Source of the DNA: Candidatus Borkfalkia faecavium
GTDB lineage: Bacteria > Bacillota > Clostridia > Christensenellales > Borkfalkiaceae
DNA: 64,000 nt
Direction: 5' to 3'
Assembly: GCA_019114755.1 (NCBI GenBank)
Contig: DXEW01000003.1
Span: 17,332 to 81,331, forward strand
Shown piece by piece: positions 22,063-27,990 of this stretch. A program made the translations under genes and the position numbers. The notes under the pieces were generated by a model. The model did no database searches, had not been told where the DNA came from, and saw only the letters and a program-made list of their open reading frames with translations. Within the stretch, counting starts at the first letter, position 1, and each line of letters starts with the position of its first letter.

Positions 22063-22725
22063 TTAGTTGAGCTTCTTATGCTCGCCCGTGAGCATGAAGA
22101 TGACCCACTCGGCGATGTTGGAGGCGTGGTCGCCGATCTTTTCCAGATACTTTGCCACCATCAGCAGGTCGAGCGCCTGCTCGCCGTTTTCGTCGTCTTC
22201 GATATTTTTATGGACGATGGAGGTGAGCTTGCGCTTGATGACGTCGAACAGGTCGTCGACGGCGTCGTCTGCACGGCAGACGGCCTTTGCCATCTCGCCG
22301 TCGCGCTCGACGAATGACTTGGTGGCATTGCGCACCATCGCCTGCACCCTGTCTGCCATTTCGGCGATCTCGGTGAGCGACTCGGCATACGGGAGCTTGC
22401 TCATTTTGATCACCAGCTCGGAAATATCCGCCGCCTGGTCGGCGATGCGCTCCATATCCGTGATCATCTTCATGGCGGAGGTGATAAAGAGAAGATCGCT
22501 TGCCACCGGCTGCTGCTTTAAGATGAGCTTTAAGCACAGGCGCTCGATCTCCTGCTCTTTTTCGTCGACCAGCGTTTCTACGGACTTGGTCTTTTGGGCG
22601 AGGGCGACGTCTTGCGTCTCCAAAGCGGTGACGGCGTCGGCAATGGCTTCGGTATTCAGCTGCCCCATCTGGATGAGCAGGTCTTTGAGCTTTGCGATCT
22701 GCTCTTCAAAAATCTTTCTGGTCAT
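22063..22725 (-). CDS. phoU: PhoU, phosphate-specific transport accessory protein
   Basis: PhoU restrains the Pst transporter and links it to phosphate signalling. The 220-residue all-helical product carries the two tandem PhoU repeats, each with an (E/D)RIADQAADISE or EKIGDHASNIAEW metal-binding motif (here ERIADQAADIS and EKIGDHASNIAE). It is the last gene of the pst operon: its ATG lies four bases after the pstB stop, and its ribosome site GGGAGG is inside the end of pstB. The stop codon is followed at once by the multi-hairpin element. Confidence 0.96.
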   Translation of the reverse strand: MTRKIFEEQIAKLKDLLIQMGQLNTEAIADAVTALETQDVALAQKTKSVETLVDEKEQEIERLCLKLILKQQPVASDLLFITSAMKMITDMERIADQAADISELVIKMSKLPYAESLTEIAEMADRVQAMVRNATKSFVERDGEMAKAVCRADDAVDDLFDVIKRKLTSIVHKNIEDDENGEQALDLLMVAKYLEKIGDHASNIAEWVIFMLTGEHKKLN

Positions 22726-22729
22726 AATA

Positions 22730-23515
22730 TCAACCAAACCTCCCGGTGATATAATCTTCGGTCCGCTTGTCGCGGGGCCGTTCGAAGATGTCGTCGGTCA
22801 CGCCGAACTCGATGAGGTCGCCCAGCAGGAAGAACGCCGTTTTATCGGAGATGCGCGCCGCCTGCTGCATGTTGTGCGTGACGATGACGATGGTATACTT
22901 TTCTTTGAGTTCCTGGGCAAGGTCCTCGATCTTGGACGTGGAAATGGGGTCGAGCGCGGAAGTCGGTTCGTCCATGAGGATGACTTCGGGCTCGACGGCA
23001 AGGGTGCGGGCGATGCACAGGCGCTGCTGCTGGCCGCCCGAAAGGCCGAGGGCGGACTTCTTCAGACGATCTTTGAGCTCATCCCAGATGGCGGCCTGGC
23101 GCAGGGAGCGCTCGACGATCTCGTCCAGCTGCGACTTTTTGCGGATGCCGTGCGTCTTGGGGCCGTAGGCGATGTTGTCATACACGCTCATGGGGAAGGG
23201 ATTGGGCTTTTGGAACACCATGCCCACGCGCTTGCGGAGCACGTTGATATCCACCTTGCCGTACAGATCGACGCCGTCGATGAGCACTTCGCCCGTGATC
23301 TTGCAGTCGGGGATGAGGTCGTTCATGCGGTTGAGCGTCTTCAAAAAGGTAGATTTGCCGCAGCCGGAAGGGCCGATGAAGGCGGTGATCTCCTTTTCTT
23401 TGATGTCCATGGAGATATTTTTGAGGGCATGGAAGTTGCCGTAGTACAAGTTGAGGTCTTTGACGTTGAACTTATCGAACGCCTGCCCCTGCTGTATGGT
23501 ATTTTGCGTATCCAT
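22730..23515 (-). CDS. pstB: PstB, phosphate ABC transporter ATPase
   Basis: This is the cytoplasmic ATPase of the PstSCAB importer. The 261-residue product has Walker [10 protein letters not shown] (48-56), the signature [16 protein letters not shown], Walker [14 protein letters not shown] and the H-loop VTHNM. ATG follows AAAAAGGAGTACT, three bases after pstA. Confidence 0.98.
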
Positions 23516-23518
23516 CGT

Positions 23519-24445
23519 TTAGTACTCCTTTTTCAGCTTGTTGCCGATATATTCCGCCGCGGCGTTGATGAGGACGGTGAGGATGATGAGGACGAGAGCG
23601 ACCGCCCAGGCGACGCCCGCGTATTCGTTCCCTTCATTGATCAGCGTATACATATACACCGTAAGCGTGCAGCCCTGCGACATGATCCCGGAAGGATAGC
23701 GGAGGTTGAACGCCGAACCTGCCGTAAATACGAGCGCCATGGTCTCGCCGACGACGCGGCCGAGACCCAGGATGATGCCCGAGATGATGCCCGGGACCGC
23801 CGAGGGCAGGATGATGACGAAGATGGTGCGCAGCTTCCCCGCGCCCAGCGCATACGAGCCTTCGCGGAAGGAATCGGGCACGGCGAGCAATGCCTCTTCT
23901 GTGGTGCGCATGATGAGCGGCATGATCATCATCGCCATGGTCAGAGAGCCGCCCAGCAGCGTTGCCCCCCACCCGAAGAAATCGGCAAACAAGATCATGC
24001 CGAAGATACCGAAGACGATGGAAGGGATGCCCGACAGCGTTTCCGCCGCCACGCGCACGATCTTGACGAATATGTTGGTCGACTTGGCGTATTCCACCAT
24101 GAAGATGGCGGCAAAGACGCCGATGACGCCTGCGATCGCCAATGACACAGCCGAAATGACCAAAGTGTTGATGAGCGCGGGCATCATCGACATATTGTCG
24201 AACGACCAGCGCCAGGCAAACAGTTCCGGCTTCAGATTCGGCAGGCCCTGGATGAGGACATAGACGAGGATCCATACGACGACCGCCGCCGTTATCAGCG
24301 TTGCCAGCATGATCAGCAAAAACAGGGCGAACGAAAAGGGCTTTTTCAAATAAGAATGCAGCTTATCGGAAAAACTTTGGCGGTTGATGGAGACGATGCC
24401 GGAGGTATCCACTTCTCCTTCTTTTAACACGAGTGCTTTTGCCAT
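23519..24445 (-). CDS. pstA: PstA, phosphate ABC transporter permease
   Basis: The 308-residue inner-membrane permease has about six transmembrane segments and the cytoplasmic EAA-type loop VPDSFREGSYALGAGKLRTIF that contacts PstB. GIPSIVFGIFGMI matches the conserved Pst permease motif. The start is supported by AAAGGAG. It pairs with PstC, three bases upstream. Confidence 0.97.
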   Translation of the reverse strand: MAKALVLKEGEVDTSGIVSINRQSFSDKLHSYLKKPFSFALFLLIMLATLITAAVVVWILVYVLIQGLPNLKPELFAWRWSFDNMSMMPALINTLVISAVSLAIAGVIGVFAAIFMVEYAKSTNIFVKIVRVAAETLSGIPSIVFGIFGMILFADFFGWGATLLGGSLTMAMMIMPLIMRTTEEALLAVPDSFREGSYALGAGKLRTIFVIILPSAVPGIISGIILGLGRVVGETMALVFTAGSAFNLRYPSGIMSQGCTLTVYMYTLINEGNEYAGVAWAVALVLIILTVLINAAAEYIGNKLKKEY

Positions 24446-24448
24446 TTT

Positions 24449-25375
24449 TTATTTCTCCTTTCTGCGCAGCAGCATGACCAGCAGCGTGATGATCAGGATG
24501 AAGACAAACAAGACCACGGCGCAGGCGATCAGGGCTTCGCGGTGCAGGCCGGTCGCATACCCCATTTCCAAAGCGATATTGGAAGAGAGGGTGCGGATCG
24601 GATCGAGCAGGCTGTCGGGAATGGCAGGCGAATTGCCGCAGATGAACACGACGGCGGCGGTTTCGCCGAACGCCCTGCCCAGGCCTAAGATGATGGAAGT
24701 GACGGTGCCCGATTTTGCCGCCGGGAAGATGGTGCGGAAGATGGCGCGCTCTTTGGTGGCGCCGAGGGCGATGGTGCCCTCGTAATAGCTCTTGGGCACG
24801 GCGCGCAGCGCGTTTTCGGTGATGCTGATGATGGTGGGCAGGATCATGATGCCGAGCACGATGGCCGTGGTGAGAAGGCAGGTGCCGCTTTTGGCATGGA
24901 ACATGTCTTGGATCAAGGGGACCAGCACCTTCAGGCCGAAATAGCCGTAGACGATGGAAGGGATGCCCGCCAAGATATTGGTGAGCGGCTTCATCACCCG
25001 GTATACCGGCCGCGGGCAGTAAAACGCCATGAACACGGCGACCAGCAGCCCGATGGGCACGCCGATCACCAAGGCGCCCGCCGTGGCGCAGGCGGTGCCG
25101 ACGATCAGTGTGCCGACGCCGTAATACCCTGCACTGGGTACCCATGTGGTGCCGAACAAGAAGTCGACAAAGCCGATCTCTGCGATCGTGGGGATCGCCG
25201 TAGCCAGCAAATAGACGCAGATGACCAGAACCACCAGAATAAAAATGGCGGCGGCAACGGCAAACAAAATGCGCATGGCAAGCTCTCTGCTATAGGCGCT
25301 TCTATTTGCTGCGGGAATGGCGGCGGCTGCCGCCGCTCCTCCTTGGCCCGGTTGTTGCTTTTGAATATCTTTCAT
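24449..25375 (-). CDS. pstC: PstC, phosphate ABC transporter permease
   Basis: The 308-residue permease has an Ala/Gln-rich cytoplasmic N-terminus of about 30 residues, then six hydrophobic segments. The conserved stretch is LAGIPSIVYGYFGLKVLVPL, and the EAA loop is VPKSYYEGTIALGATKERAIF. ATG follows GAGG. A hairpin in the 78-base gap to pstS may separate expression levels of pstS and the membrane genes. Confidence 0.97.
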   Translation of the reverse strand: MKDIQKQQPGQGGAAAAAAIPAANRSAYSRELAMRILFAVAAAIFILVVLVICVYLLATAIPTIAEIGFVDFLFGTTWVPSAGYYGVGTLIVGTACATAGALVIGVPIGLLVAVFMAFYCPRPVYRVMKPLTNILAGIPSIVYGYFGLKVLVPLIQDMFHAKSGTCLLTTAIVLGIMILPTIISITENALRAVPKSYYEGTIALGATKERAIFRTIFPAAKSGTVTSIILGLGRAFGETAAVVFICGNSPAIPDSLLDPIRTLSSNIALEMGYATGLHREALIACAVVLFVFILIITLLVMLLRRKEK

Positions 25376-25453: not shown

Positions 25454-26347
25454 TTATGCGTCGGCATTCAACGCGTTGTTCAGAAGCTCGGTGTACGCTT
25501 CGGCAAGTTTACCCATCAGAGGCTGCACCGAAGTGGAGCCCGCGATGTCGAGCTCGCTGGTCGTAGGCAGCGTTTCGGGCACTTTATATTCGGGAGCGGA
25601 AGCAAGGCCGCTTACATAGCCCTCTTCGACGATGATGTCGTGTGCCTGGGCACTCTTGAGGAAGGTGAAGAAATCGGCCAGCAGGTCGTTCGAATCCATC
25701 GTAGCCTGCTGATACATCACGTTGAACGGACGGGCGAGGGTATATTTGCCTTCAAGCACGTTGTCGGTGGTGGCTTCGACGCCGTTGATGTTCACCGCGC
25801 TGACCGTTTCATCCAAAGAGCCGAGCGAGATATAGCCGATAGCCTGCTCGTTGCCGGCGACATATTCCATCAATGCGCTGGTCGAGTTAGAGGTGTTTGC
25901 GGCTTCTACCAGCGTGGTGGCGTCTTCGATCTCGATGAGTTCGAGGAAGGCGTCGCGCGTGCCGGAACCGTCTTCACGCTGGCCGACGGCGATCTCGCCT
26001 TCAGCCGTAGCGCCTTCGATCTCGCTCCAGTCGGTGATCTCGCCCGTATAAATGGCGTTCAGCTGGTCGGTGGTCAGATTATCCAACTCGTTTGCGTTGT
26101 TGACGATGACTGCGATGCCGTCCTGGCAGATGGCATACACTTCGATGCCCTCGGCATCTTCGCCTTCCACTTTGCTGGAAGCCATGCCCATTTCTACCTG
26201 ACCGGACTTAGCCTGCGAAATACCGACGCCCGAACCGCCGCCGGAAACATTGACCAGATATTCGCCTACGCCGCCGCAGCCGACTGCGGCAAAACCGATA
26301 CAGCAAGCGACTGCCGCGCTTGCAACTGCCATGATGATCTTTTTCAT
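25454..26347 (-). CDS. pstS: PstS phosphate-binding lipoprotein with circularly permuted order
   Basis: The 297-residue product has a lipoprotein signal (MKKIIMAVASAAVACCIGFA then AVGC). In normal Gram-positive PstS the mature chain starts with a GSTSVQPL phosphate loop and helix, then reaches GGGSGVGI. Here the chain starts directly at YLVNVSGGGSGVGI. It continues through MGMASSK, DGIAVIVN, IYTGEITDWSE, QREDGSGTRDAF and GYISLGS, and then ends with LDIAGSTSVQPLMGKLAEAY plus a short tail. The first strand-helix unit has thus moved to the C-terminus. All phosphate-contact motifs are present, so it is probably functional. It heads the pst operon behind a PhoP-box array. Confidence 0.93.
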   Translation of the reverse strand: MKKIIMAVASAAVACCIGFAAVGCGGVGEYLVNVSGGGSGVGISQAKSGQVEMGMASSKVEGEDAEGIEVYAICQDGIAVIVNNANELDNLTTDQLNAIYTGEITDWSEIEGATAEGEIAVGQREDGSGTRDAFLELIEIEDATTLVEAANTSNSTSALMEYVAGNEQAIGYISLGSLDETVSAVNINGVEATTDNVLEGKYTLARPFNVMYQQATMDSNDLLADFFTFLKSAQAHDIIVEEGYVSGLASAPEYKVPETLPTTSELDIAGSTSVQPLMGKLAEAYTELLNNALNADA

Positions 26348-26651: not shown

Positions 26652-27794
26652 TTACGGGCGGGCGCTTTTTTTGGAGAGCAGGCGGGAACAGACGGCGGCG
26701 GCGATGAACAGCAGCACGCCGCTCCACAGGTCTGCGGCAAACGGCGCGCCCTGCGCCCAGCTTTGGTAGACGGCGAACAGTTCGGGGTTGCAGAACATAC
26801 AGGCGATCTGCGACAACGCCAGCCCCGCGATGCAGAAAAAGGCGGGGGCGCGGCGGCGCTCAAACAGGCGAGAAATCCCGCGCGAACAGGCGATGAGCCC
26901 GGCGATAAAGCCGACGCCCAGGCAGGCGTACACGCCGAAGACAGAAGGGTCCTGCCGCCAATAGGTAAGGCTGACGGAAGAGAGCAGCGACTGAAAGCAG
27001 CCCAGCGCCAGAAGCAGCGCCGTTGCCGACAGCCCCGGCACCACCTGCGTGAGCGCCACGGCAAAGCCCAAAAGCAAAAACAGCGGCCACACATACCAGG
27101 CGCGGGCCGTGATATCCGCCTGCGCCCCGCCGAAGATGCCGGCGCAGCCGAGCGCCAGCGGCAGCGCCAGGCCTATAATAAATAATAAGATGCGCGGGGC
27201 GGTGCGCTTTTCCCCCGCGAGGGGGCGCACCTCTGCGGGGTATGCCCCCGCCATCAGCCCCGCGAACAGGGCGGACACGGCGAAGGGGCACAGCTCCAGC
27301 AGGCGGCGCACGGCGAAAAAGCCGACCGCAAACCCCACGGCCGCCCCCGCGGCTATGGGAAGAAGGAACAGCGCGCAGGCCTTGAAGCGGCGGAAGATGT
27401 TGCCCAGCGCATAGAGGAGCTTTTCGTACAGGCCGAAGAGCAGGGCGACCGCCGCCCCGCTGACGCCCGGCACGATGACGGCAAGCCCCAAACAGGCGCC
27501 GAAAAGGATCGCCCGCCACACTTCCCCCGCCCCCGTATAGGAAAGGGAGGGCGCACTCTCGCCTTGCGAAGCGCCTTCGCCCGCGCTCTTCCCTGCTCCT
27601 GCGGTGTACTCTGCGGGCGCAGTTCCGCCTTGCAAAGAAGCGGCCGGGCTTTTTTGGGACGCGGCAGGAGCGCCTTCCGCGTTTTGCGGCGGTGCGGAAG
27701 AGGCGCGCCCTTCCGCAGGGCGGGGCTGCCCGTTATGCAAAGCGCCGCCTTGCTCGGGCGGCGCGCTTTTCTCGCTGCGGTGTTGGTCTTTCAC
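26652..27794 (-). CDS. DUF368 membrane protein (PopT-type undecaprenyl phosphate translocase)
   Basis: The protein has a Pro/Ala/Glu-rich hydrophilic N-terminus of about 90 residues, then eight or more hydrophobic segments. It carries the two inverted family motifs, VPGVSGAAVALLFG and VPGLSATALLLALG. Members of this family have been shown to recycle undecaprenyl phosphate across the membrane for cell-wall synthesis; that role is inferred. The track frame starts inside a heptamer repeat at 27944. A GTG at 27794, preceded by AGGGG and spaced eight bases, is a better start and gives 380 residues. Confidence 0.85.
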   Translation of the reverse strand: MKDQHRSEKSAPPEQGGALHNGQPRPAEGRASSAPPQNAEGAPAASQKSPAASLQGGTAPAEYTAGAGKSAGEGASQGESAPSLSYTGAGEVWRAILFGACLGLAVIVPGVSGAAVALLFGLYEKLLYALGNIFRRFKACALFLLPIAAGAAVGFAVGFFAVRRLLELCPFAVSALFAGLMAGAYPAEVRPLAGEKRTAPRILLFIIGLALPLALGCAGIFGGAQADITARAWYVWPLFLLLGFAVALTQVVPGLSATALLLALGCFQSLLSSVSLTYWRQDPSVFGVYACLGVGFIAGLIACSRGISRLFERRRAPAFFCIAGLALSQIACMFCNPELFAVYQSWAQGAPFAADLWSGVLLFIAAAVCSRLLSKKSARP

Positions 27795-27849
27795 GATCTT
27801 ACCCCTATATGATCTGTTCTTTGCCGCGTTCAAAAGAGCGGAAGGGATT

Positions 27850-27990
27850 TTGAATGTAAAATGTAAAGTGTAAAATGTAAAATTAAGGACGAACGGAAAA
27901 ATGTTTTTAATCTTTTCCAAAATTCTACATTCTACATTTACCATTTATAAATGAGATCCTTCGTCGCTGCGCTCCTCAGGATGACAGGGG
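27850..27990. repeat. Inverted heptamer arrays plus dispersed unit
   Basis: GAATGTAAAATGTAAAGTGT at 27851 and its inverted counterpart CTACATTCTACATTTACC at 27923-27941 flank about 45 bases and could fold into a long hairpin. GAGATCCTTCGTCGCTGCGC and CTCAGGATGACAG follow at once. The same inverted arrangement recurs at 49.5-49.6 and 57.1-57.2 kb. Confidence 0.85.

Follow-up and report, generated by a model that had tools for sequence, protein, structure and literature searches.

The lipoprotein PstS encoded at positions 25454..26347 on the minus strand of the window, by which the whole analysed stretch of 64,000 nucleotides is meant here, has 297 aa, and its modules follow each other in the order B-C-A, whereas the order of ordinary PstS proteins is A-B-C. 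It is very likely that this protein is the PstS of a PstSCAB importer and that its gene arose by a second permutation of an already permuted gene of the order C-A-B. The simplest history would lead from A-B-C to C-A-B and from there to B-C-A, with the last step taken inside the gut bacterial genus Candidatus Borkfalkia. The circular permutation had been proposed from the DNA letters in a preceding sequence-only reading and is confirmed by the present analysis. Two points are added to it, namely that the parent gene was very likely itself permuted, and that permuted PstS proteins are as a kind not new.

Block order and predicted fold of the window protein

Block A is defined here as a strand, the GSTS loop and a helix, block B as a strand and the GGGSG loop, extending through the IYTGEITDWSE stretch, and block C as a strand and the REDGSGTR loop up to the final helices. 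Read from the N-terminus, the window protein starts with a signal peptide and a lipobox (residues 1-24, 26276..26347; AVGC, with Cys24 being the lipidation site by motif), and this signal peptide matches those of the C-A-B homologues in the genus. A short tether (residues 25-31, 26255..26275) connects Cys24 to block B (residues 32-109, 26021..26254), which contains YLVNVSGGGSGVGI and includes the GGGSG loop, GMASS and DGIA. The B-to-C junction (residues 110-117, IEGATAEG, 25997..26020) is followed by block C with its motifs REDGSGTR, ISLGSL and RPFN (residues 118-251, 25595..25996), both blocks being delimited by block HMMs. A C-to-A linker shared with the C-A-B relatives (residues 252-264, PEYKVPETLPTTS, 25556..25594) then leads to block A (residues 265-286, AGSTSVQPLMGKLAEAY, 25490..25555; located by phmmer and block HMM), which is N-terminal in ordinary PstS. 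The stretch ELDIAGSTSVQPLMGKLAEAY of block A is continued by a dozen more residues of the same helix, after which the protein stops; this C-terminal end (residues 287-297, 25457..25489) was assigned from the AlphaFold2 model, in which the helix spans residues 275-296. All of these features lie on the minus strand, and the coordinates previously given for the gene proved to be exact.

The profile matches of the protein fit a displaced first block. PF12849 was matched with 108.6 bits (cut-off 27), but the alignment starts only at profile position 40, and the match to TIGR02136 (8.9e-52) is split into two stretches and stays with 176.1 bits below the cut-off of 206.6. In phmmer comparisons with the ordinary PstS proteins 4gd5, 4q8r and 1twy, residues 262-287 of the window protein correspond to the start of the chain and residues 31-246 to the remainder, the match of residues 262-287 being weak when taken alone (4-6 bits). 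With an HMM for block A that had been derived exclusively from 28 ordinary A-B-C sequences, the C-termini of the seven B-C-A proteins all scored 19.4-36.8 bits, whereas 3,500 shuffles of whole proteins gave at most 9.2 bits. No second block A is found at the N-terminus, where Cys24 and block B are separated by just seven residues. The block HMMs and the shuffle control therefore bear out the earlier statement that the mature protein starts with block B, ends with block A and keeps the rest in order between them.

It had also been considered that the GSTSVQPL segment might open a second, truncated lobe, or that the protein might be a fusion of two PstS copies. Both readings were rejected, as the chain terminates with the block A helix and lacks an N-terminal block A. 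A real two-copy form, which occurs in another genome (G384, 544 aa), looks different. The window protein also does not fit the definition of the C-A-B form, which starts at the RExGSGTR strand and has block B last. Its homology to PstS extends over the solute-binding domain (PF12849, TIGR02136), while the canonical A-B-C order is absent; this order is typical of PstS and not required, since 4h1x is named PstS 2 and has the order C-A-B.

The AlphaFold2 model of the window protein has a mean pLDDT of 84.1 and a pTM of 0.79, with an input of seven sequences and with mean pLDDT values across the five models ranging from 54.6 to 84.1. Each block is opened in the model by a strand (E265-270, E31-35 and E120-124) directly followed by a phosphate motif. 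This suggests that each block supplies one phosphate loop and that the cuts fall in helix-to-strand connections. When overlaid on known PstS structures with VIA-align, the B-C part of the model matches the ordinary crystals (4gd5, 4q8r and 1twy) with Z-scores of 22.9-24.3 (residues 28-247 against 1twy_B: Z 24.3, rmsd 2.0 Å, 216 residues), and residues 117-291 match 4h1x over the C-A part (Z 14.5, rmsd 1.8 Å, 169 residues, 41% identity). As these overlapping matches cover B-C as well as C-A, block A is predicted to pack on block C as in solved PstS structures. With the same modules in cyclic rotation and the same predicted fold, the B-C-A protein is a natural circular permutant, a description supported by its block order and the model.

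Operon context, conservation and ligand

That the gene heads a complete pst operon was found to be correct. On the same strand it is followed by pstC (24449..25375; TIGR02138, 263.3 bits), pstA (23519..24445; TIGR00974, 243.8 bits), pstB (22730..23515; TIGR00972, 423.6 bits) and phoU (22063..22737; TIGR02135, 198.9 bits), all of which score above their NCBIfam equivalog cut-offs. The position directly upstream of pstC is kept by pstS in all seven B-C-A loci and in all 17 C-A-B loci of the genus that entered this comparison (17 of 27 rows, those with loci over 2 kb). The identity of pstC to that of the window amounts to 70-84% in the other B-C-A genomes and to 62-69% in C-A-B genomes. The gene 5′ of pstS (window 26652-27944, minus strand) resembles the polyprenyl-phosphate transporter PopT with 68.7 bits, which is far below the curated cut-off of 400. 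Elsewhere in the window's own genome, a second PF12849 protein is encoded (L002, G000:C22:111488-112207; 404-aa frame) that is about 22% identical to the window protein.

The B-C-A pstS gene is under purifying selection, with dN/dS values over the whole protein of 0.13, 0.18 and 0.21 between the window gene and three B-C-A orthologues. The genome assembly, in 38 contigs and 89.9% complete, is an incomplete draft, which would speak for an artefact of assembly or of the gene model, or else for a decaying gene. Such an explanation is extremely improbable in view of the low dN/dS, the conserved binding motifs, the uninterrupted reading frames and the recurrence of the order among the 40 genomes of the genus, seven of which have it intact and one split. 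As the order recurs in independent genomes, frameshift, assembly error and pseudogene were all rejected.

All seven B-C-A proteins share S271-T272-S273, S39, S57, R124 and S128-G129-T130 without exception, and the motifs GSTS, GGxS, GMAS and RExxSGT are all present in the window protein. R124 aligns with Arg125 of the PstS from C. perfringens (4q8r), a residue that PMC12421899 identifies as a phosphate ligand; the other phosphate-loop residues were assigned by motif correspondence. Judged from its sequence, the window PstS would be lipidated, bind phosphate and serve in its transport. The family is diverse in sequence and the phosphate assignment itself is drawn from sequence, which leaves some room for a real permuted fold that was recruited to a different ligand. 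With all phosphate-loop motifs kept, with R124 in the place of a known phosphate ligand and with the gene heading pstCAB-phoU, such a recruitment is very unlikely.

As for other phosphate importers, PiT was found in none of the 40 genomes of the genus, and a match to the Na/Pi cotransporter (PF02690) in 38 of them. Pst is therefore probably not the sole phosphate route, and the argument that it must be essential was dropped for this reason.

Distribution of block orders and origin of the B-C-A gene

A family search for the same order, which the sequence-only reading had recommended as a check, was positive. Among the 40 genomes of Candidatus Borkfalkia, the B-C-A order is intact in seven, and in one more (G029) the gene is split over two contig ends. 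The C-A-B order is present in 30 genomes, in 26 of them intact, in one frame-broken (G017), in one split (G013) and in two cut, with the start of the C-A-B gene at a contig end (G032 and G037). None of the 40 genomes has both orders and in none of them an A-B-C PstS was seen. A PstS match of the studied kind is absent from the remaining two, G018 and G031. Both of these have a Na/Pi cotransporter match, and G031 lacks the PstS although it is 94% complete. The break in G017 (L018, G017:C124) lies inside block B and may be a mutation or an assembly error. The named genomes with the B-C-A order are uncultured MAGs or assembled metagenome records.

Outside the genus, full-length C-A-B proteins occur in at least 10 of 299 genomes of the phylum. 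Among the matches listed under strict E-value limits, which are ranked from the strongest downwards, none of these 299 genomes other than the window's own shows the B-C-A order, and with likewise strict limits the 201 surveyed genomes of the family yielded it in Candidatus Borkfalkia alone; this absence elsewhere is read as provisional. Within the family, A-B-C and C-A-B PstS proteins coexist, even in one genus (e.g., g3, by matched query range). This side-by-side occurrence hints at several permutations or at frequent transfer. As a single origin of the C-A-B order was not rejected (AU p = 0.072, in a quick tree without two long-branched rows of genome G089; the A-B-C rows do not form one group in the trees), several C-A-B origins are not claimed. 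The two rows that had been left out (L108 and L121; G089:C4:44000-49611) are C-A-B binding proteins that have diverged strongly and sit on very long branches; they are encoded on the same contig at a distance of about 4.8 kb and are possibly no longer phosphate-specific.

After the blocks of all proteins had been brought into one common order, a tree was built from 89 rows and 259 columns. In it, the seven B-C-A proteins form one group (98/75), which is sister to ten C-A-B proteins of the genus, the joint clade being supported with 100/99. This tree does not contain the fragments (G029, G013, G032 and G037), the two genomes without PstS (G018 and G031) and many further PstS matches of the phylum and family surveys; rows without a block A match (three from the genus and one other; C-A-B/A-B-C) are in the tree and were left out of the linker table. 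Trees of block B only and of block C only recover the same 17-row clade with SH-aLRT values of 90 and 93, respectively. The B-C-A proteins are not one group in the block C tree (two changes), yet they lie inside this clade. A grouping of the B-C-A with the A-B-C proteins was rejected by the AU test (p = 0.00046), and holding B-C-A outside its 17 C-A-B neighbours gave p = 0.035, a value to be read with the fact that this group was picked after seeing the tree. As C-A-B, the common form of the genus, is very likely the direct parent, the B-C-A order would represent a second permutation.

Further evidence comes from the sites at which the blocks are joined. The B-C-A proteins and their C-A-B neighbours have an APxYxVPE-like C-to-A linker in common (PEYKVPETLPTTS in the window protein, PAYTVPEGNLTVT in that of G012), whereas in A-B-C proteins block C is followed by only a few residues. 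The B-to-C junctions of G020, the deepest B-C-A row, and of G030 read VGGADAS and LGGSDAA, respectively, and look in their length and GGxD motif like the native junction of A-B-C proteins, as if it had never been broken. This is what would be expected from a single permutation, independent of the C-A-B form, whose direct starting point was an ordinary A-B-C PstS or else a tandem of the type A-B-C-A-B-C such as exists in G384. The tether of a C-A-B protein, such as CGGGDAINVY in G024, reads alike when it is joined to a C-A-B tail, so that the B-to-C junction does not decide. The nested position of B-C-A within C-A-B, in which the block B and block C trees agree, the rejected grouping with A-B-C, the shared C-to-A linker and the lack of any A-B-C PstS among the 40 genomes of the genus make such a direct route unlikely. 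The A-B-C-like junction in two B-C-A rows, together with the occurrence of A-B-C and C-A-B PstS in the same bacterial family, would also fit a recombination in which a C-A-B gene swapped a part with a foreign A-B-C gene and thereby turned into signal peptide-B-C-A with no tandem step of its own. As the nearest relatives of block B and of block C are the same C-A-B proteins, any donor tract would be confined to a few residues around the junction, and this possibility appears quite improbable.

A second permutation of a C-A-B gene, the preferred reading, could have proceeded as follows. An earlier permutation would have converted A-B-C into C-A-B, a form now found in several Bacillota lineages and in the pneumococcal PstS2. 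The B-C-A order would then most likely have come about in Candidatus Borkfalkia through a C-A-B-C-A-B gene, formed by tandem copying in frame and trimmed to signal peptide plus B-C-A while the position in the operon remained unchanged. The chain would still close into the two-lobed phosphate trap, with block A closing the fold from the C-terminal end and the lipid anchor now sitting, via a tether of about seven residues, on the first strand of block B. A tandem duplication followed by trimming, as suggested by the sequence-only reading, is hence judged to be the best mechanism, and the tandem step is placed by us in the Candidatus Borkfalkia lineage as a presumed event; a C-A-B-C-A-B intermediate was seen in none of the genomes surveyed. 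A tandem A-B-C-A-B-C PstS is extant in G384, which belongs to another family of the phylum (L051 / L120, G384:C1:563600-566200). It is encoded by an ORF of 544 aa on a contig of 3.8 Mb, has one lipoprotein signal peptide and consists of halves that are 73.6% identical. Although the window gene does not descend from this tandem, the latter shows that such a form exists.

Membrane tether and comparison with known permuted proteins

The shift of the lipoprotein signal to a different edge of the fold, which had likewise been pointed out before, is evident from the succession of signal peptide, lipobox, seven-residue tether and block B. The tether from the Cys to the first block has a median length of 7 residues in B-C-A proteins (range 5-11, seven rows), of 4.5 in C-A-B proteins of the genus (24 rows), of 12 in other C-A-B proteins (21 rows; 5 of 26 such rows have no recognised lipobox) and of 18.5 in A-B-C proteins (26 rows), all of these lengths being uncertain by a few residues as the block edges were set by HMM. 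The ends of PstS might have moved repeatedly, as all three cyclic orders, tandem fusions as living intermediates and a second move kept in one genus would indicate, and it is conceivable, though doubtful, that these moves were retained not by chance but because a short lipid tether shifts to different edges of the fold.

In most cases, natural circular permutations are encountered as isolated events that took place long ago and are complete. Here, two successive permutations appear traceable in a single gene that kept its place in the operon; sister species have the parent order, and a tandem form of this family occurs in another genome. Such a series makes two questions testable, namely by way of which viable intermediates a permutation proceeds and whether moving a lipid-anchored end has an adaptive value. 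The B-C-A order completes the set of all three cyclic orders of the modules, each of them opened by a strand with a phosphate loop. New are the B-C-A order itself, the serial permutation and the finding that all three cyclic orders occur alongside a tandem form. This implies that evolution may move the membrane anchor and the ends of such a binding protein more than once. On the practical side, profiles that depend on block order under-call permuted pstS genes, as seen from the TIGR02136 score of the window protein.

The order C-A-B of PDB entry 4h1x (Streptococcus pneumoniae PstS 2) means that a permuted PstS was already present in the PDB, although no paper discussing its permutation was found in the open-access literature. 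This naturally permuted protein has the same C-to-A join as the window protein, but it is cut before the REDGSGTR strand and has block B last, whereas the window protein is cut before the GGGSG strand and has block B first. The C-A-B PstS proteins of the genus, which form the sister clade, share with the window protein the place in the operon, a similar signal peptide and the C-to-A linker; their block B is C-terminal, while that of the window protein follows the signal peptide and precedes block C. Ordinary PstS proteins of the TIGR02136 type (4gd5, 4q8r and 1twy) have the same fold as predicted for the window protein, the same binding motifs and the same operon partners, but block A is N-terminal in them and their tether has a median length of 18.5 residues instead of the 7 of the window protein.

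No permuted PstS and no serial permutation of a binding protein was recognised in the open-access literature (titles and starts of abstracts), and TpMglB-2 of Treponema pallidum was the only published natural permutant of a binding lipoprotein found there. TpMglB-2 is a glucose-binding lipoprotein that was permuted naturally and has kept its ability to bind the ligand and to close, and its authors suggested, without a test, that the permutation is perhaps an adaptation to membrane tethering (PMC4990184). It has a Type I sugar-binding fold, belongs to another family and went through one permutation only. Nevertheless, both TpMglB-2 and the window PstS, for which ligand binding is predicted, are solute-binding lipoproteins of ABC importers with a natural circular permutation.
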